NCBI RefSeq assembly: GCF_000969985.1
Contig: NZ_CP009526.1
Span: 806,001 to 870,000 of the forward strand
Source: Methanosarcina barkeri str. Wiesmoor
GTDB taxonomy: Archaea; Halobacteriota; Methanosarcinia; Methanosarcinales; Methanosarcinaceae
DNA length: 64,000 nucleotides
Direction of reading: 5' to 3'
The stretch's first letter is position 1; each line of letters starts with the position of its first letter. Positions 19,845-31,578 of this stretch are shown piece by piece. The notes beneath the pieces are model-generated. The model ran no database searches and was not told where the DNA came from. It saw nothing but the letters and a program-made list of their open reading frames with translations. Position numbers and translations under genes: made by a program.

Positions 19845-22070
19845 TTAAAAATCTTTGTTAAAAACTCCCATTATTGTGTCTTCTGAGTCCAACAATAGAC
19901 CCAGTTCAGAATTGTAGTCAACACTTGCAAATATCATATTAGAGTCAATCTGGATCTGGTTATTAGTTTTTAGTTTATTGTATTGGCCAAGATTTATCGA
20001 GACAACGTATTTCATAGCTTCAAAATATTTTTTATTTTCAATTTCCTCAAGATATTCAAGTTTAAACTGATCAGGAACAACTTCAACTGATTGATAAAGG
20101 TTATAAAATTCGTCCTGATTTTCTTTTTCATTTATGAAAGGAACAATTTGACTATAGAACTTAGAAAAGGTCTTTTTCACCATTTCAAAGGATTCCAGAT
20201 CCGAACCCTGATATCCACTAGAATAAACTTCGTCCACAAGTTCTTGAATTCTGCTTTCTCCTAAAACACTCTCTTTACTTAACAGCTCTAGACTTTTAGA
20301 GACTAATTCCTGATTTTTGTAAACATATTTGTCTTTTTCAGATCCTTCTTCAAAAACATACACTGGCTTGATTATTTTCTCTTCCCATCCTTTTCGATTA
20401 ATCCTTCCAAACCTCTGAATAAGTGCATCGAGGGGAGCCGGTTCAGAAAATAGTACATCATAATCAATATCAAGGGAAACCTCTATTGCCTGTGTACCGA
20501 CTAAAAGGTTTAGGTTCTTCAATTTTGATTCAATTTTTTCCCTGTCTCGTAGAATAAATCTTCCATGGATTAAGCCTGAATTTTCTATTCCTTGAGAGAG
20601 CAGTTTGTATATTTTTTGGGCTTGAGCGACGGTATTACAAACAACAAGTACCTTTTTCTTATGATTGAGTTCTTTTCTGATCAGATCCAAATTATCTAAA
20701 ATGCCTCCTTTAAGAACAGAAACTCTATGCCTTGTAAACTCATCCAGTTCAAGTTCTGTAAAAGAGATCTCCGTTTCGATTTCCAGATCCTGCTTAAACA
20801 TTTCTTTAAGAAAAGAAGGAAGAGTGGCAGACATGATTAAGAAATTTGCTTGATAACCTTTTAGGATCTTGAGTGTCTCAAGGATCAGAGCAGTCATATG
20901 AGCATCATATGCGTGAATTTCATCCATTATGAACAGAGCACTGGACATTTCTGCAAGATTCTGCTCGAAGCCTCGAATTCCAAACATGGGTTTAAGAACC
21001 TGATGTGGAGTCGCTATTTTATATGGTCTGTATATCTTATTGGTAAGGCTTTTTACTTGCTTTGCTTTTTTAGTTGCGGTCAAGTAATCTTCATTCTCAA
21101 AGCTTTGATATAAATAGTACATGGCTTTTCCATGCTGGATACCAATCAATTCAGGATCTTTAAAATCCTTTTGAAGTCGTTTATACATTGCATTGATACT
21201 CGCAGTATAAGGAAGCAAGTAAAAGACCCTTTTAGATCTGCCAGGATTCTGGTTTGCATAACTCCAGAACAATGCAGCTTCTGTTTTCCCAGTTCCAGTA
21301 GGTGCAATTAGAAAGGCATCACCTTTTGTTTCTAATGATTGACTCTGAGTTTTTCTCAGCTCGGAGAAATTATATACAGCTCTTATGTCTTCAATTCCGG
21401 ATAATAAGCTGTACTTTCCCCCAGATGCCAGATGATCACAGGCGGTTAAAAATCCCTTGAGGAATATCCCGTACTTTCCGTGTAAAACTGTTAACTCATC
21501 ATTATCAAGCTGTTTTTTGTAAGGTTTTATTGAATTTTTGTAAGGATCAACCATTTCCTCAATTGATTTTATTTCTTTAAATTTATTTAGCTCAAAACCC
21601 AGATACTTCTTACTAATTTCTGGAATTTTCCTCTGAATCTCTCTTAATTCTTCAAAGTTAGGAGTTAATTCCTGTAGCTTCTCAATATATCTTTTTTTAG
21701 CAAGAGGATTTGAGTCTATCCGATATTTTTCCCGCAAATAAGACACATCTTTATGATGCGTGATTATTGCTAAAGCTATAGCTTCTCTTGATTCATTTTC
21801 GTATTCAAGCCCAGAAGTGAAGCCAGCAGAGAGAACTTCATGCCTGTATTTCCACTTCTCTTCTTCGCAGAGAGATTTTTGGAATCCTGATGCAGCTTTC
21901 CCAAAATCATGAAAAAAAATAGAGTAGAAGAGATGCTCCCAGAAATCCGGGACTCCACAGATTTGAGGAGTTTCAGGATATGCATCTTTTATGCTTTTAA
22001 AGACCTTAAGGGCGTTTTCTGTATGTTCCAGTAAAGTCTCATCCGGGTCCTTTTTTGCAAGTATGACCAT
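19845..22070 (-). CDS. cas3: Cas3 nuclease-helicase (type I-B)
   Basis: A 741-residue HD-nuclease/helicase fusion that degrades Cascade-bound DNA. HD residues are His54-Asp55 (FFHDFGKA), His105-His106 (ITHHKD) and Asp212-His213. The helicase has Walker A APTGTGKT (residues 256-263), DEIH (383-386), the motif III-like SATLP and QRFGRINRKG (motif VI). GGGAGGAAAT before the ATG is a good SD. It is the last gene of the interference operon cas8b-cas7-cas5-cas3, 22 bp after cas5. All catalytic motifs look intact. Confidence 0.95.
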   Translation of the reverse strand: MVILAKKDPDETLLEHTENALKVFKSIKDAYPETPQICGVPDFWEHLFYSIFFHDFGKAASGFQKSLCEEEKWKYRHEVLSAGFTSGLEYENESREAIALAIITHHKDVSYLREKYRIDSNPLAKKRYIEKLQELTPNFEELREIQRKIPEISKKYLGFELNKFKEIKSIEEMVDPYKNSIKPYKKQLDNDELTVLHGKYGIFLKGFLTACDHLASGGKYSLLSGIEDIRAVYNFSELRKTQSQSLETKGDAFLIAPTGTGKTEAALFWSYANQNPGRSKRVFYLLPYTASINAMYKRLQKDFKDPELIGIQHGKAMYYLYQSFENEDYLTATKKAKQVKSLTNKIYRPYKIATPHQVLKPMFGIRGFEQNLAEMSSALFIMDEIHAYDAHMTALILETLKILKGYQANFLIMSATLPSFLKEMFKQDLEIETEISFTELELDEFTRHRVSVLKGGILDNLDLIRKELNHKKKVLVVCNTVAQAQKIYKLLSQGIENSGLIHGRFILRDREKIESKLKNLNLLVGTQAIEVSLDIDYDVLFSEPAPLDALIQRFGRINRKGWEEKIIKPVYVFEEGSEKDKYVYKNQELVSKSLELLSKESVLGESRIQELVDEVYSSGYQGSDLESFEMVKKTFSKFYSQIVPFINEKENQDEFYNLYQSVEVVPDQFKLEYLEEIENKKYFEAMKYVVSINLGQYNKLKTNNQIQIDSNMIFASVDYNSELGLLLDSEDTIMGVFNKDF

Positions 22071-22092
22071 ATTTCCTCCCTGTGTCTACCAA

Positions 22093-22716
22093 TCAATTCT
22101 TATGAAGCCAGATTGCCCAATCCATTTCAGGATCGAATAAACACTTTTCTGGATAGACGAAAAACTCATCCATCAAAAGATATGGTTTCACACCTACAGC
22201 TTTTCTGGGAATTGCATCAGTAAAGTGAGTTGGAAGAGCCTGTACAAGTCCATATGCACCTTTAATTCCAAAAGGAAGGATTGTTTTTCCCAATCTCTTT
22301 CCAGCTTCTTCTGCAAGCTCTAATTCCTTTATTTCGGAGACTTTCGCCAAATCTCCAGATCTACCAAAGAGAAGAGGGTGTTGAGGCTTACGGAAATATT
22401 TCTCAAAATCGGGCCTGTCAAGATAAAGATATAGTTCTGGGTTGTACAAGAACTCTCTTTTTACTACATTTGATTTTGCAGAAAGTCCCGGACTTAACTC
22501 GTAGATTGTTTCAAGGTCTACTGCTTTACTCTCAAAGTCAAATACATAACCAATATTTACATCTTCAGGAACAGTTAACTCTCCTTTTGCTGCTGAAATC
22601 AATCCATAAATGGTACTTAGGGGAGGGGCTGGAAGAGTAGGCTGAAATCCGCTTATAAAACCCGGATATCTAAAAGATGCAGTCCAGCCCTCAATTTTGA
22701 TCCTTAAGACTTTCAT
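22093..22716 (-). CDS. cas5: Cas5 (type I-B)
   Basis: A 207-residue Cascade subunit that caps the 5' handle of the crRNA. The N-terminal RRM strand and loop (VLRIKIEGWTASFRYPGFISG...QPTLPAPPLSTIYGLISAAK) is diagnostic for Cas5. The gene overlaps the cas7 end in the sense that GAGGTAAG serves both as cas7 stop region and cas5 SD. Length is typical of the Tneap (Cas5t) group. Confidence 0.92.
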   Translation of the reverse strand: MKVLRIKIEGWTASFRYPGFISGFQPTLPAPPLSTIYGLISAAKGELTVPEDVNIGYVFDFESKAVDLETIYELSPGLSAKSNVVKREFLYNPELYLYLDRPDFEKYFRKPQHPLLFGRSGDLAKVSEIKELELAEEAGKRLGKTILPFGIKGAYGLVQALPTHFTDAIPRKAVGVKPYLLMDEFFVYPEKCLFDPEMDWAIWLHKN

Positions 22717-22717
22717 C

Positions 22718-23719
22718 TTACCTCATCAGCCCGGGAATCGTTTGAACGAAGGAATCAACCATTTCGTTTATAGAGCCGTAAATTACTTTTCGATTATTTC
22801 CTGCATATTTTTTAGTTAGATCTTTAAAAACAGGGTCAAGATCTTCCATGAAACCTTTACGTCTTCCAATATAAATATCAGTTAACAGGATATCTGAATA
22901 ATCGGAAATCACTTCTTCCAGAGCTGCCACGTCTACAAGAGCTTCTCCCTTTTCTTCTCTGACAAGATTCATAAACAGGTGATTTCCTCCGTCTATCCCT
23001 GCGAGTATGAGAAGTTTTGGGGAGACATCAGTGAGATGGGAAGTTTGCTTTGCACCACCTGCAAGGTATGGAAGAGCTTTCAGTACATCTTTTGCTCTCT
23101 TTTCTCTGACTTCAGTAGACATTACCCATTTATCTTCGATTTTCTCTGCCCCATTCTTTTCTGCAATTGTTTCCAGTTCTGGATACATGTTTCTGTATCC
23201 CGTTTTCTCACTCTTGTAAAACACGCCGACATTGTCAAGATCAAGCGAAAAGATTCCCTTCAAAACCGTAGAGTAGAATTCGTGTTCATAAGGAACGGGA
23301 TCTCCTTCATGGCGAGCCATCACTCCAAAATCGTCTGTAGGAACCTGACCAACGATTGAAACAAGAGGCGAATTCTTCAAGACAGAAAGTCTTGTAACAG
23401 TACCACCGTCTGCCTTTTTGAGAGCTCTCATGTATCCGAATACATCATCATCATCGTATTCGACAGGATTGGCACTTGTAAACGCTATTTTCTTTTCTCG
23501 TTCTATAGGAGAAATGTTCCAATTGAATTTTTCTTCAAGAGTAGTCCGCCACCAGTACCTGAGAGCCTGCCCTGAAACATAGGGATATACTTTCTTCCCT
23601 TTTCTGATTGCTTTTACTCTGACAATATTTTCGGTCCTTTCACTGCTGTCATTTCCTGCGTTATTGAGTGCTGAATGGGGAGCATCGATAAGCATGAAAC
23701 CATTTACTGTGTGTGTCAT
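22718..23719 (-). CDS. cas7: Cas7 (Cst2/DevR family)
   Basis: A 333-residue backbone subunit of Cascade that coats the crRNA spacer. Features are VNGFMLIDAPHSALNNAGND, then VRVKAIRKGKKVYPYVSGQALRYWWR, a signature of Cst2/DevR Cas7. Two in-frame ATGs exist at 23725 and 23719. GGAGG seven bases before 23719 supports the shorter form. The start lies against the cas8b stop, so the two genes are translationally coupled. Confidence 0.92.
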   Translation of the reverse strand: MTHTVNGFMLIDAPHSALNNAGNDSSERTENIVRVKAIRKGKKVYPYVSGQALRYWWRTTLEEKFNWNISPIEREKKIAFTSANPVEYDDDDVFGYMRALKKADGGTVTRLSVLKNSPLVSIVGQVPTDDFGVMARHEGDPVPYEHEFYSTVLKGIFSLDLDNVGVFYKSEKTGYRNMYPELETIAEKNGAEKIEDKWVMSTEVREKRAKDVLKALPYLAGGAKQTSHLTDVSPKLLILAGIDGGNHLFMNLVREEKGEALVDVAALEEVISDYSDILLTDIYIGRRKGFMEDLDPVFKDLTKKYAGNNRKVIYGSINEMVDSFVQTIPGLMR

Positions 23720-23721
23720 AA

Positions 23722-25092
23722 TCATTCCTCCTCAAGTAATCCCATTTCTTCTTCGTCGCTAGAAATAAGTTTAGACTTCAAGGTATCATGTTCAACCAAC
23801 CAGTTGTGTAGATTTTCATAAATTCTGAAGAGCAAAAGATCCTGAGTCTCTCTCCAACCCAGATTCCCTTCAGGAAAGAGATCGTCCATAAACTCTTCAA
23901 GAGTAAAAAGCGGGTCTTGAACACTTCGATTTATTCGGTCTTTTTCGATAATCCTCAATTGATTCCTGAATGATGCAAAATTTCTTGCCATTTCAAGCTG
24001 ATTTAATCTTTTTATGTTTTGAGTATCTTTTATGTACTCTGAGATGCTGTCCCCAACTCTTTTGAGTGTATCCAATCTCTTACTACCCATGTTTCTTACC
24101 TCCTTTAAGTAAAATTCCAATAGTTCCCAATCTCCGTATACCTGCCGGTTTTTGTTATCAATAAAATATTTCACAATGGAGCGGCCTTTTAATAGATTTA
24201 TATAAACAGAGTTCCCTCTGTTCTTGTAGTCGTCTCCTTCCTTAATTTTATTCCAATTAAAATAGCCCCTTCTGACAATTTTTTTCCATTCTGTAAACCA
24301 TTCAGGGTCTTTAACACAAGCCAAAAATCTGAACACAGGGGTTGGAACTCTATATATATCAAGATCAGGTCCCTGATTAAAATTTGTAAAATGATACATG
24401 TTTATAGAGGGATTTTCCTCAACCCAGTCTTCGTCGTACTGGATAATAATATCCTCAATTATATGAAAAAGAGCATTAACAGGATTTTTGTAACCTTCAT
24501 CAAAACAACCACTATAGCTATTTGCCAAAATCTGCCTTCGAATGTCCTTTACTGCCTTTTCTACCCAGTAATGCATGACCTTATTAGAATTGGAGTGGAT
24601 TAGCAAAAGTTTTCCACAGGCGTAAAAAACAAGAGGAGAAAATTGAACTGCAAGCGTACAGGCCGGACAGTAGTCAGCCCCTTTCTGACCATACGGAAAA
24701 AAGTTAATTAGTGTACCTGAACCTATTAAAGGAATTTCTGTTTTCGTCCTGGTTTGCTCTACATTATATTTTCCACAAGAGATACAGTTCCCCGATTTCT
24801 CTGATTTCTCCAGGGACTCAACCTGACCGATTAACTTCTCTAAAGACTCAAGCAGCTTTTTATCTTTATTTTTCACAGAAGGATTGGTAACCGCATTATT
24901 CGGAAAAACCGAATAAAGACTCTTTGACCATTTCAGACTCAAATATATAGGGATTACATCATGTGCTATCTTCTTTACATCTTCAATTTTTATATCTTCA
25001 GGCTTTTTTCTGCCTGACCACTCGCATATAGCCCAGATCCCAGAGTCTACAAAAGGATTTCCAGTAAATGTATAAAGAAAGCTTTGACTCAT
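23722..25092 (-). CDS. cas8b: Cas8b1/Cst1 large subunit
   Basis: A 456-residue large Cascade subunit, expected to recognise the PAM. A four-Cys zinc finger (CISC at 103-106, CPAC at 142-145) separated by a GSGTLINFFPYG motif is characteristic of Cst1/Cas8b1 of the Tneap subtype. The N-terminus (SFLYTFTGNPFVDSGIWAI) also fits. It is the first gene of the interference operon, beginning 137 bp past the leader-distal array end. SD is TTGGAAGT. The C-terminal tail is acidic. Confidence 0.9.
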   Translation of the reverse strand: MSQSFLYTFTGNPFVDSGIWAICEWSGRKKPEDIKIEDVKKIAHDVIPIYLSLKWSKSLYSVFPNNAVTNPSVKNKDKKLLESLEKLIGQVESLEKSEKSGNCISCGKYNVEQTRTKTEIPLIGSGTLINFFPYGQKGADYCPACTLAVQFSPLVFYACGKLLLIHSNSNKVMHYWVEKAVKDIRRQILANSYSGCFDEGYKNPVNALFHIIEDIIIQYDEDWVEENPSINMYHFTNFNQGPDLDIYRVPTPVFRFLACVKDPEWFTEWKKIVRRGYFNWNKIKEGDDYKNRGNSVYINLLKGRSIVKYFIDNKNRQVYGDWELLEFYLKEVRNMGSKRLDTLKRVGDSISEYIKDTQNIKRLNQLEMARNFASFRNQLRIIEKDRINRSVQDPLFTLEEFMDDLFPEGNLGWRETQDLLLFRIYENLHNWLVEHDTLKSKLISSDEEEMGLLEEE

Positions 25093-25229: not shown

Positions 25230-28200
25230 GTTTCAATCCCTATAAGACCTGATTTTAACGCTTCATTATCCAGCCGCCGTATTCCTAAAATTTCTCTTGT
25301 TTCAATCCCTCTAAGGCCTGATTTTAACCGGAAACTTGTTTTAATCAGAAATGGGATGGTGAACATGTTTCAATCCCTCTAAGGCCTGATTTTAACCAGT
25401 TTTAAATGCCCCGCCTTTTGGTTTTCATAGTTTTTGTTTCAATCCCTCTAAGGCCTGATTTTAACGCAAGGATATATGACGAAAATTTGTAGAGATTATA
25501 TGTTTCAATCCCTCTAAGGCCTGATTTTAACTGTGAGGATATCATGCCAGCAGCGCCATTTGAAGATTGTTTCAATCCCTCTAAGGCCTGATTTTAACAC
25601 TAAGAAAATGAAAGAGATTTTCTTTGGTGAAACGTTTCAGTCCCTCTAAGGCCTGATTTTAACGAAAAAATGAATATCCCTTCTGGATCAAACAGAGAAG
25701 CGTTTCAATCCCTCTAAGGCCTGATTTTAACTTAAGCAGGTTGCCCCATACCCTACAGACTGAGATTGTTTCAATCCCTCTAAGGCCTGATTTTAACGTC
25801 TTCTTCGATTATCCATGGACTTAATCTTACCCGTTTCAATCCCTCTAAGGCCTGATTTTAACGCTAAAAAGCGGAAACATGATAATGATGCTCATAAGTT
25901 TCAATCCCTCTAAGGCCTGATTTTAACTTTTTTGCATTTCCAAATGGAAACCTTGGAAATTGCGTTTCAATCCCTCTAAGGCCTGATTTTAACATTTCCA
26001 TACAGATTTTCTGAATACCGCCATTTGATGTTTCAATCCCTCTAAGGCCTGATTTTAACCCCAACTGCTGAAGCAAATACTTTAGCCGTAGTCGTGTTTC
26101 AATCCCTCTAAGGCCTGATTTTAACGTTTCTACAAGATATCATGTCCTTGAAAGTTACGTGGTTTCAATCCCTCTAAGGCCTGATTTTAACCAGAGCGGA
26201 ATGAGTAACAGTACTTTGTATTATGCGTTTCAATCCCTCTAAGGCCTGATTTTAACTTGATATCTATTCGTTGAAGCGATGGAGAACTTGAGGGTTTCAA
26301 TCCCTCTAAGGCCTGATTTTAACTGTTTCACACCAAGGGAGTGTTTTCCATCCGAATATGTTTCAATCCCTCTAAGGCCTGATTTTAACTGCAATTTCCG
26401 TAAAAGATATTCTCGATATTGCAATGTTTCAATCCCTCTAAGGCCTGATTTTAACAGTGCTGCTACTGTGTCTATAAATGGTTTATAACTAAGTTTCAAT
26501 CCCTCTAAGGCCTGATTTTAACAACTTATAGATTTTAAAGGGCTTCAAAAAGAATATCTGTTTCAATCCCTCTAAGGCCTGATTTTAACTATCTAACTAT
26601 TATTGAGCTGTCAGAAACATACACGTTTCAATCCCTCTAAGGCCTGATTTTAACGTATAGCTTAGACAGACAATCGTTTTTGTTTTTATGTTTCAATCCC
26701 TCTAAGGCCTGATTTTAACTATATAAAATTTCAAGTTGGGGTTAAAGAAGAGCACGTTTCAATCCCTCTAAGGCCTGATTTTAACCATATTTGACATTTT
26801 AGATATTAAATTCACAGATTCGTTTCAATCCCTCTAAGGCCTGATTTTAACAACACAGGAACCAGTAGAACAGGATCACCTAAATTGTTTCAATCCCTCT
26901 AAGGCCTGATTTTAACTTATAATTCATGAGTTTCTTATTTACTTTCTTTATATGGTTTCAATCCCTCTAAGGCCTGATTTTAACCTGCATTGCTCGTCCC
27001 TCCGATATCCCATGAATCAAGTTTCAATCCCTCTAAGGCCTGATTTTAACCGACTTAAGACCAAACACTCCACTAAAATCATCATTGTTTCAATCCCTCT
27101 AAGGCCTGATTTTAACAAAGTTTAGTTTTATTGCCAATCATCCTAATCCTCGTTTCAATCCCTCTAAGGCCTGATTTTAACACTGCTATGGGTGTGACTG
27201 CTGGGAGCCAATTAAACGTTTCAATCCCTCTAAGGCCTGATTTTAACATCCTAATCCTCCAGCATTCCTTGAATACTTAGTTAGGTTTCAATCCCTCTAA
27301 GGCCTGATTTTAACTCGTAAAAGATGCTTATATAAAAAGTGGATTTGATGTTTCAATCCCTCTAAGGCCTGATTTTAACAGAGTAAAAACCCCTTGAAAT
27401 CCTTCGGTAGCTGAGTTTCAATCCCTCTAAGGCCTGATTTTAACCAATTTTTTAAATCCGTACAATTGTTAGAATTATAGTTTCAATCCCTCTAAGGCCT
27501 GATTTTAACATTTTTCAATTGCTCCGCCGGTCACCGGTTGAACTCGTTTCAATCCCTCTAAGGCCTGATTTTAACACGTGTTGTACTCGGGAACTAAGAA
27601 GATTATTCCTAAAGTTTCAATCCCTCTAAGGCCTGATTTTAACTTTCCCACCCGTATTGTTTCACATCCGTCACATTCGTTTCAATCCCTCTAAGGCCTG
27701 ATTTTAACATTTATACTTATAATTCTAGGAATTATTATATATTGATGTTTCAATCCCTCTAAGGCCTGATTTTAACCTCTTATCCATACTGCTTCGTGTC
27801 TATGTCCAGGATAGTTTCAATCCCTCTAAGGCCTGATTTTAACATATTTTTAAGGTTCATATGTGTTGCTCCAAAAAAGGTTTCAATCCCTCTAAGGCCT
27901 GATTTTAACGATACTAACAGGTGTCTGTGCATCGAGTTTTGACAGGTTTCAATCCCTCTAAGGCCTGATTTTAACCAGACCCGCAGGCAACCCCGACTAG
28001 CTGCTTCCAATGTTTCAATCCCTCTAAGGCCTGATTTTAACAAGGGGCTTCTTGATGAAAGATTAAGACTCCTAGATTGTTTCAATCCCTCTAAGGCCTG
28101 ATTTTAACAGTATTTTGGGAGTTCGGGATATCCAGACTCAGAATAGTTTCAATCCCTCTAAGGCCTGATTTTAACTATCGTTTGCATTAAGAATATCAGT

Positions 28201-28572
28201 TATAGACACAGTTTCAATCCCTCTAAGGCCTGATTTTAACCTTTTGCGTGGATTCCGTCTGTTTCTCTCCATGCGGGTTTCAATCCCTCTAAGGCCTGAT
28301 TTTAACACTAAATCAGGTCCGCCTGTATGATCATATCTTGCATTGTTTCAATCCCTCTAAGGCCTGATTTTAACGTTCGAGATCAAATGATAGATTATAT
28401 TTTACTATTACGTTTCAATCCCTCTAAGGCCTGATTTTAACAAGGACAATACTTGCTGGATATATTTTTGATTCAACGTTTCAATCCCTCTAAGGCCTGA
28501 TTTTAACTTTCTTTTGCTAGCCAGTCCTGAATTTCAAGTTCAGTTTCAATCCCTCTAAGGCCTGATTTTAAC
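25230..28572 (-). CRISPR. type I-B CRISPR array, 51 repeats and 50 spacers
   Basis: A 30-nt repeat runs from GTTTCAATCCCT to CTGATTTTAAC on the + strand. Spacers are 35-39 nt. On the minus strand repeats end ATTGAAAC, the usual archaeal crRNA 5' handle, so the array is transcribed right to left like the cas genes. The leader lies between the array and cas2. The leader-distal repeat at 25230 is degenerate (CCCTATAAGACC for CCCTCTAAGGCC), as expected for the oldest end. One internal repeat near 25634 has TTTCAGTCCC. All others read identical by eye. Frames crossing the array are artefacts. Confidence 0.98.
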
Positions 28573-28881: not shown

Positions 28882-29145
28882 CTAAATAATGTTGCTGATA
28901 TCCGCTTTTGGAGTTCCAAGGTTTTCAATCCCAAGGTACTTTTTATCTCTTGAGCTGTAGAATATAATGTGGTCCGAAGTCTCGTTAATTAGCTCCTTAA
29001 GCGTAGACTTAACTTTAAGGAGTTCGGCTTTTGTAAGTTCGCCTTCAAATACACTGTTCTGGACCCAATTCATATATTGTCTTAGAAAAGTTCTGACTTT
29101 GTTTACTCTGTCAACTCCCACATCATATACTATTACTACATACAT
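28882..29145 (-). CDS. cas2: Cas2 endoribonuclease-like adaptation protein
   Basis: An 87-residue ferredoxin-fold protein (MYVVIVYDVGVDRVNKVRTF) that dimerises between two Cas1 dimers during spacer integration. The conserved Asp is in VYDVG at residue 8, and NWVQNSVFEGELTKAEL follows. A GTG at 29154 is in frame, but GGTGGT lies just before ATG 29145, the family's usual start. The gene lies 36 bp after cas1 and next to the leader. Confidence 0.95.
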   Translation of the reverse strand: MYVVIVYDVGVDRVNKVRTFLRQYMNWVQNSVFEGELTKAELLKVKSTLKELINETSDHIIFYSSRDKKYLGIENLGTPKADISNII

Positions 29146-29181
29146 GTTTACCACCTTAACTTAGCAACTTTCACTAACAGA

Positions 29182-30183
29182 TTACCACCACATAACCAGA
29201 GGCTTATATTCCTCTGCTCCCAAAACATGCTTTGAAAGCTTATATAGCTCAAGCCGTATAAGCCGTTTGTAAGAGACACTCTGGTTCAGACCTTTGTGTT
29301 TGATAGTGGTCTTAAGTTTTTCATCGTATTCTTTAAGGAAGATTTTCTTCCCTTTTTCGCTAAGCAGCATATTCCCTATCTCTCCCCGGAAGCAGTTGCC
29401 GCCAAGCATGTTTTTGTTGACCAGTTTGAAAATGATCCTGTCTACCAGAATAGGCTTGAAAATCTCACTAACGTCAAGAGAAAGAGAAAATCTTCGCTCA
29501 AAAGGCTCATGCAGGTATGAAATTGTAGGATTAAGTTGAGTATTATAAATCTCGGAGAGAGTAGTGGAATAGACTAATGAATTTCCGAAACTTATGAGTG
29601 TATTCATTTTGTTTTCTGGTGGTCTTCGGGTGCGTTTTATTATTCTGTATTCCTCTGGGAAAATCTCATCAAGTGCGTTATAATAAAGCTCTCGGATTTT
29701 CCCTTCAGTTCTCATCATCGAAGGGACTGCTTTTGCACCCTCAAGGCAGGAAAGTTCTGACTCTATAGAAGTTGCATAACTTTCGATTGCTTCCTGAATA
29801 TCCTCTCTATTCCTTGCATAGTACCTGAGATTCCTCAGGATATTCCCACAGGCACCCTCAATAAATTTTCCAGCCAGATAGAGTCGTCTTTCAGGGTTAA
29901 GGTAATGTTCTGCCTGTTGAATGACCAGATCTCCGCTGATAAGAGTTTCCCGTGGATACATTGAGCCCTCATAGAAACCGTAATAATTGAAAAAATGAAT
30001 TGGAATACCCTCTTTAGAAAGGTAAGAAACGACCCCTGATGAAAAAGAAAGGTTTCCATAAGCAAAGATCGAACTGATTTTATTTATAGGAAGGATCTTC
30101 CTTCCCTCTTTATTCTCAAAATAAACCGTATTTTCTTTTCTCTTTAAAATTCCGTCCTGTAGAATATAAAAATCTTCTCTTAT
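29182..30183 (-). CDS. cas1: Cas1 integrase with apparent ATA start
   Basis: A 333-residue spacer integrase. Active-site regions are intact: Glu in [13 protein letters not shown] and His in [19 protein letters not shown] with the following acidic residues. An internal ATG (29961) begins only at MYPRETL, but the frame continues upstream through [18 protein letters not shown] and [16 protein letters not shown], the normal Cas1 N-terminal beta domain. The only codon at the right place is ATA (30181-30183), seven bases after GGAGG. No ATG, GTG or TTG lies between it and the in-frame upstream stop. A G-to-A change of the start codon, or real AUA initiation, is implied. Confidence 0.9.
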
Positions 30184-30224
30184 TTTTTTACCTCCTCTAG
30201 CATTTCATTAATTTTTTTGCTTTT

Positions 30225-30824
30225 TTATACTCTATCTCTATCCCCGCAAAAGCAGAACTCCTTGTAGGCGCATTTTGAACAGATTCTCTTGCGCTCTGGT
30301 GGAGGCATGGAGCCAAGAACTATATTTTTGATGTTTTTGATATCTTTTTCAGTGATGGCTTCATCCTCCGGGGTTAACTCTATTTTTTCAGTTTTATTCA
30401 AAAGAGGGTAATTTAAGACTCCCACAGCATCGATGCCTTTTTTCTTGAGAAAGTAAAGATAAAACAAAAGCTGAGCCCGATCGGCAACATCGATTTTTTT
30501 GCTTTTCTTTACTTCATGAATCTCAAGTTTCTTTCCGGTTTTAACAAAATCAATACTTATACCGTCAATAGTAATATTTTTTGAATTTTTCTTGTAGCGA
30601 TCTTCATGTAGCATTTTTCCTATGGCGACATTATCGCTTTCTTTCTCAAGGCTGATATTATGAGAAAAAAGCCAGAGCTTTGTCTCACATACATGATAGT
30701 AATTGACTTTAACTCCGGTAATTCGAACTGATCCCAGGAAAACTTCTGCATGAATGCTTCTCTCGGGTTCAGATAGAGACCCATCGAAAGATTTCTCTTT
30801 CTCCTTAGTAGTCTCATCACTCAA
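30225..30824 (-). CDS. cas4: Cas4 exonuclease
   Basis: A 199-residue RecB-like 5'-3' exonuclease that trims prespacers and helps select the PAM. The iron-sulfur cysteines are Cys46 (YYHVCETKLW) and Cys182, Cys185, Cys191 (ICSKCAYKEFC). The nuclease motif is ISIDFV ... LEIHEVKKSKK (Asp, Glu, Lys). The SD is AAGGA before ATG. It lies 13 bp after cas6 and 41 bp before cas1, so it is part of the adaptation operon. Confidence 0.93.
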   Translation of the reverse strand: MSDETTKEKEKSFDGSLSEPERSIHAEVFLGSVRITGVKVNYYHVCETKLWLFSHNISLEKESDNVAIGKMLHEDRYKKNSKNITIDGISIDFVKTGKKLEIHEVKKSKKIDVADRAQLLFYLYFLKKKGIDAVGVLNYPLLNKTEKIELTPEDEAITEKDIKNIKNIVLGSMPPPERKRICSKCAYKEFCFCGDRDRV

Positions 30825-30837
30825 TCCTTCGACCTCC

Positions 30838-31578
30838 TTACTTTTGTTTCACTTCCAGAACATTGACACATCCGAACCCCATAGCATTTTTCTCACCCAA
30901 CCCCGCATCATACGCAAACTGTAATAGTTCTGGATTTGCGGACAGGTACAGATTCATCAAACTGCAACGCCTGTAATTGTTTTCTATTTTTACTCTTTTG
31001 GGTTTGAAGCTTGGGATCTTAATAACTTCAAAAAAGTCCTTATCGATTTTTGATCCATAGAATTCTTCGTACCTGGCAACCAGATTTTTATGCAGGTTTT
31101 CATGGAACTTTGAGTCTTTTGGATACAGGTCAAACTCTACCAGCCTGTCATCCTGTTTTCTCTGGGTTTTTAAATAGATCGGAGAAAGAGTCCTGAAGGT
31201 ACATGTATCCGAAAAATGTATTAAAGGAAGAACTTCAATTCTTTCAATTACGAAATTGGACTTATTTCCATTATTTCCAAGGAAAAATTCTGGTTCAATC
31301 AAAAGCCCTTCTGCAAAACTCCTTATGAACTCAGGATCGGGAGATGACAGGAAAAAATGAGCTTTCTTGAAATTTAATCCATTTTTTTCGGGAATTTTGT
31401 CTTCAAGAATAAGATTGGAAAACGTGTAGAATTTGAAGCCTTTTTTACTGTGAATCTTATTTGCAAGCTCTATATTAGAAGTAGCTAACTTCGAATATAA
31501 CATTGAGGCAAGACCATACTGATAATCGTAATGGAGTGGCTCGGGAGATATTTTTCTGACACTTACCCTGCATCTCAT
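30838..31578 (-). CDS. cas6: Cas6 crRNA endonuclease
   Basis: A 246-residue RAMP endonuclease that cuts the repeat to leave the eight-base 5' handle. The C-terminal glycine-rich loop GLGEKNAMGFGCVNV near residue 225 is diagnostic. The N-terminal ferredoxin fold starts MRCRVSVRKISPEPLHYDYQ, with possible catalytic His in this region. First gene of cas6-cas4-cas1-cas2. A TATA box 23-30 bp before the ATG and the lack of an SD suggest a leaderless message. Confidence 0.92.
   Translation of the reverse strand: MRCRVSVRKISPEPLHYDYQYGLASMLYSKLATSNIELANKIHSKKGFKFYTFSNLILEDKIPEKNGLNFKKAHFFLSSPDPEFIRSFAEGLLIEPEFFLGNNGNKSNFVIERIEVLPLIHFSDTCTFRTLSPIYLKTQRKQDDRLVEFDLYPKDSKFHENLHKNLVARYEEFYGSKIDKDFFEVIKIPSFKPKRVKIENNYRRCSLMNLYLSANPELLQFAYDAGLGEKNAMGFGCVNVLEVKQK

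Follow-up and report, generated by a model that had tools for sequence, protein, structure and literature searches.

The window, a stretch of 64,000 nucleotides from Methanosarcina barkeri str. Wiesmoor, contains a type I-B CRISPR-Cas locus in which the cas1 gene encodes a complete Cas1 protein with no ATG, GTG or TTG in front of it. This raises the question of where translation of the integrase begins, and whether a cell with such a gene still adds spacers to its array.

The locus lies on the minus strand in the order cas6, cas4, cas1, cas2, array, cas8b1, cas7, cas5b and cas3. On one side of cas1 are cas6 (30838..31578, profile match) and cas4 (30225..30824), which starts with TTG in the window and with GTG or TTG in sister species. 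On the other side follow cas2 (28882..29145), with a 27-aa-independent start at ATG 29145 and its own GGTGGTAAAC upstream, a CRISPR array (25230..28572) of 51 repeats of 30 nt with 50 distinct spacers, and the interference genes cas8b1, cas7, cas5b and cas3 (19845..25092, profile match). The cas1 gene is adjoined by the genes of Cas8b1/Cst1, Cas7/Cst2, Cas5b, Cas3, Cas6, Cas4 and Cas2 and by the 51-repeat array, as expected for type I-B. Two imperfect repeats of the array are located at its low-coordinate end, far from cas2. The gap between cas1 and cas2 measures 36 nt in the window (29146-29181) and includes another GGTGGTAAAC-like start region; in three other genomes (G001, G009 and G010) the TAA of cas1 directly abuts the ATG of cas2 (TAAATG).

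The start region of cas1

The cas1 frame (29182..30183, minus strand) encodes a type I-B Cas1b protein of 333 residues, as supported by profile matches and by dN/dS. It scores 474.3 bits with TIGR03641, against a cut-off of 304.1 and with residues 4-333 covered, and its alignment to Pfam Cas_Cas1 begins at profile position 2. The first codon of this full-length frame is ATA (30183-30181), followed by AGA GAA GAT TTT TAT ATT (REDFYI...). In minus-strand order it is preceded by the Shine-Dalgarno (SD) sequence GAGGAGGT (30197-30190) and a spacer, the ATA lying 7 nt after GAGGAGG. The frame is closed upstream by a TGA (30207-30205), and the codons between the two, AAT GCT AGA GGA GGT AAA AAA, include no ATG, GTG or TTG. 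The initial annotation had described an ATA start behind a strong SD, no canonical codon back to the in-frame stop and a Cas1 N-terminal domain encoded ahead of the first ATG, and all three observations are borne out.

The earliest ATG, GTG or TTG in the frame is the ATG at 29961-29959, codon 75. An internal start at this ATG, or at a TTG found at codon 13 of sister species, is the choice of gene callers restricted to the three canonical codons. Starting at 29961 would drop 74 N-terminal codons, and the resulting protein aligns to Pfam Cas_Cas1 only from position 74, with positions 2-73 lost, while the TTG at codon 13 is TTA in the window genome. The codons in question evolve as those of a conserved protein: across five species, codons 2-74 show a dN/dS of 0.00-0.04 at a synonymous divergence ranging from 0.17 for the closest pair to saturation, and they are conserved equally to or more than the remaining gene. 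As purifying selection on them is strong, codons 2-74 are, by their pattern of substitution, translated. The same values oppose the notion that orthologues begin at ATG 29961, which we reject as the start; an internal canonical start appears scarcely credible.

A different route into the frame would be initiation at an out-of-frame upstream ATG (ATG CTA GAG GAG GTA AAA AAA TAA), followed by a -1 slip on a run of seven A. Both the mini-ORF and the A7 run are present in the window, but the run is not conserved, the sister species having TAAAAGAATC, nor is the ATG frame, and other upstream frames in the sister species stop earlier. This makes a frameshifted origin of Cas1 highly improbable.

Pairing of the SD with the anti-SD amounts to -11.5 kcal/mol for cas1 in the window, stronger than for 97.8% of 270 Methanosarcina genes whose starts are approximate. 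Across the five species with this cas1, the values lie between -10.5 and -11.5 kcal/mol, which ranks them in the 94th-98th percentile among the same 270 genes, and most ATG orthologues outside Methanosarcina have a weaker SD. No RNA structure exceeding that of shuffled sequences was found at the cas1 start, and an Rfam search of this region matched no element.

Conservation and origin of the start codon

A search across 31 Methanosarcina genomes recovered four close orthologues of the cas1 of the window genome (G000), 90-92% identical to it. All four carry ATC, not ATG, at the codon aligned with ATA, behind an SD conserved as AGGAGGT or GGGGGT and the spacer TAAAAGA (TAAAARA with the window); the noncoding stretch 5' of cas1 is divergent except for SD and spacer. 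Among the eight cas genes of the locus, cas1 is alone in starting with AUH throughout the five species; the other seven use ATG, GTG or TTG. The candidate start region of cas7 in G001 and G009 aligns as CTG ACT ATG.

These orthologues bear on the suggestion of the initial annotation that an ATG was lost by one base, leaving acquisition nearly silent. A fresh start loss, or a sequencing error, requires a single transition from ATG to ATA, and would leave Cas1 barely made and the array frozen with interference intact. With ATC in 4/4 sister species, however, ATG is not the recent ancestral state, Cas1 is under strong purifying selection, and the arrays described below are without sign of freezing. 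We consider a fresh loss or a base-call error very unlikely.

In Methanolobus-like genomes, ANME-2 and Methanoperedens, cas1 has ATG or TTG at exactly the aligned codon, and in Methanohalophilus euhalobius it has ATT. Because the outgroup genes start at the same codon and the SD is exceptionally strong, the position of the ATA is not a matter of chance. The putative near-cognate AUH start is aligned with the AUG of homologues, has no canonical in-frame start upstream, is retained in related species and stands at proper spacing behind a strong SD. The tree unites the ATH genes of Methanosarcina in a single clade (100/100) and the TTG genes in a separate clade (97/99), and places the Methanohalophilus gene apart, next to ATG genes; some deep branches are weakly supported. 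This placement indicates that the non-AUG start is ancestral to the Methanosarcina I-B cas1 and has been kept to high or saturated synonymous divergence, and that the AUH start of Methanohalophilus probably arose independently.

Of the 27 Ile codons compared in cas1, 10 are identical among the four ATC species. The retention of the start codon is no greater than for such ordinary Ile codons, so cas1 alone gives no proof of selection against AUG, and we do not claim it. A search of IMG/VR found no relative, and plasmid matches were distant (<60% identity). In the cas1 of Methanofastidiosum, GGGGGTGA stands directly 5' of ATA ATT, and a short way ahead of this SD lies an ATG in the same frame; the gene offers a possible, ambiguous further AUH start.

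Spacer acquisition and Cas1 dosage

The long arrays beside the AUH-started cas1 genes comprise 51 (G000), 71 (G009), 31 (G001), 33 (G010) and 85 (G022) repeats, nearly all identical within each array, and pairwise comparison of the five species' arrays gives no common spacer. Apart from fragments, the AUH-started gene is the only full-length match of the Cas1 profile in G001 and G009. The spacers were most likely gained after the species split, with cas1 already AUH-started; array transfer or a lost second Cas1 is a less likely but conceivable alternative. As the arrays have no spacers in common, and a further full-length Cas1 is missing from G001 and G009, the AUH-started cas1 evidently supports acquisition. 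The expectation of a frozen array was thus not upheld, while the other option raised for this gene, that AUA is used, gains support in a broader form: AUH codons appear to be used, conserved and recurrent. Long-term acquisition is read from the sequences themselves, as are the start position, its conservation, the translation of the N-terminus and the SD strength.

Quite probably, ribosomes enter the full-length type I-B Cas1 frame at a conserved near-cognate codon, AUA in the window and AUC in the four sister species, and the Cas1 dose is limited thereby. A 7-base-pair SD duplex would position the small subunit at the start, where the ordinary CAU initiator tRNA would pair with the first two bases of AUH, the third being mismatched, and Cas1 would begin with Met. 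Poor initiation at AUH would hold Cas1 far below what AUG would yield, and this low dose would restrain spacer acquisition, not abolish it. With a weak start codon offset by a very strong SD, Cas1 would probably be scarce rather than broken. The mispairing by the initiator tRNA and the low efficiency are what we infer, together with a selection for low dose, the latter because AUH recurs and reversion to AUG is absent.

Inefficient initiation of Cas1 at AUH is likely by analogy. In S. aureus, expression from conserved AUA and AUU starts with an extended SD was about 10% of that from AUG, and one near-cognate-start gene reached up to 30% of AUG in rich medium (PMC13009471). The efficiency could also be very low, as aIF1 of Sulfolobus was reported to discriminate against non-canonical starts (PMC6237735). 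A pattern search of the genome for initiator-type anticodon stems returned three tandem CAU tRNA-Met copies, and no variant anticodon in initiator tRNA was seen among the candidates tested. The three tRNA-Met (CAT) genes, with initiator-type stems and 138 nt spacing, are located at C2:80691-80981 of G000; an elevated number of initiator genes could promote initiation at near-cognate codons.

Possible near-cognate starts in other genes, and known systems

A second Cas1 lineage, 27-28% identical to the Cas1 of the window, is present in G006, G011 and G023. In 3/3 species its cas1 opens with ATT, preceded by GGAGGT or GGGGG, and in two of the three an in-frame TAA stands immediately before the ATT; in G011 there is no ATG, GTG or TTG within the first 60 codons. 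Every change in codons 2-21 falls on a third position, and the homologues have ATG (five) or TTG (one) at the start codon. As two distantly related cas1 lineages within Methanosarcina carry AUH, the change of the cas1 start is recurrent, and with Methanohalophilus as a further lineage cas1 gained a non-canonical start at least twice, probably three times.

To place cas1 among other genes, 800 kb of G009 were compared with 1.2 Mb of G001, along with the cas regions, giving 297 non-overlapping orthologous pairs. Pairs were screened for coding-type conservation upstream of any ATG, GTG or TTG combined with a near-cognate start that both members plausibly share, and besides cas1 three of the 297 passed. 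A CDP-alcohol phosphatidyltransferase gene (C2:4209976-4210602 in G000) starts with ATA (14), ATC (12) or ATT (2) in 28/28 Methanosarcina genomes and never with ATG, and with ATG, ATT or ATA in other genera. A ferredoxin-domain gene (G009 C1:286197-287018, minus strand) apparently starts with ACG in the majority of Methanosarcina species; two have ATG at the aligned codon. For a small zinc-ribbon gene (G009 C1:416157-416342, plus strand; G000 C2:4213589-4213771, minus strand), 25 of the 29 Methanosarcina genomes have a CTG start preceded by GGAGG, three have ATG and one has TTG. Judged from these pairs, non-canonical starts in the family are rare but recurrent, and roughly 1% of Methanosarcina genes (3/297 pairs) may have a misannotated start. 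A methyltransferase gene interrupted by TAG, of the known pyrrolysine type, was recovered as an internal control. Most N-terminal extensions flagged by the screen were antisense shadows or conserved promoters.

This wider set bears on whether the AUH codon of cas1 serves any purpose. Behind a strong SD the codon might be near neutral, AUG having decayed once to AUH and wandering since between AUC and AUA. Such drift is in line with an ATC kept no better than ordinary Ile codons, with the small number of independent cas1 lineages and with the like behaviour of unrelated genes. It accords poorly with the acquisition of AUH by two distantly related cas1 lineages and Methanohalophilus, with reversion to AUG in 0/5 cas1 and 0/28 CDP-alcohol transferase genes, and with the failure to take up the commoner starts GTG and TTG; on balance drift seems rather unlikely. 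Going beyond a limited Cas1 dose, we tentatively consider that cas1 of the Methanosarcinaceae repeatedly swapped AUG for AUH with a strong SD as a selected throttle on adaptation, within a wider set of near-cognate genes (AUH, ACG, CUG) whose output would follow archaeal initiation stringency. We regard this as possible, though short of an even chance.

Most known examples of AUH starts come from a small number of bacterial genes. Bacterial infC starts with AUU, and IF3 regulates its own synthesis through initiation fidelity. It shares with cas1 an AUH start that would limit expression; its loop works via initiation fidelity, whereas Cas1 is a DNA integrase for which we claim no such loop. Three S. 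aureus genes, infC, ccpN and cvfC1, resemble cas1 in AUH starts kept among relatives and an unusually strong SD (PMC13009471). They are bacterial, were established by profiling and reporters and encode IF3, a repressor and a small protein, whereas the present case is archaeal, concerns a CRISPR integrase and was deduced from sequence alone. For archaea, a review lists just AUG, GUG and UUG as start codons (PMC7531240), and our literature search found no report of AUH starts in cas genes. Compared with type I-B Cas1b as defined by TIGR03641, the Cas1 of the window is full-length in an ordinary locus and differs only by its start codon. If the proposed dosage limit holds, a single codon would control the rate at which new CRISPR memory is written in archaea.

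One of the genomes searched, G008, is presumably M. mazei, as its ATP synthase B, unlike that of G009, is identical to PDB 2c61, an M. mazei protein; its Cas1 is a different, I-D-like protein with the candidate start GTG. In M. mazei Go1, Cas1, Cas2 and Cas4 went undetected in proteomes though the interference genes were expressed, and no spacer acquisition was seen (PMC7465815). The AUH start of cas1 may bear on both observations, should MM_0559, the Cas1 of Go1, be an orthologue; the likeness lies in the undetected adaptation proteins. The genome of the window itself contains a second, distantly related Cas1 (C2:2016749-2017588) inside an open frame of 595 aa that may encode a Cas4-Cas1 fusion.
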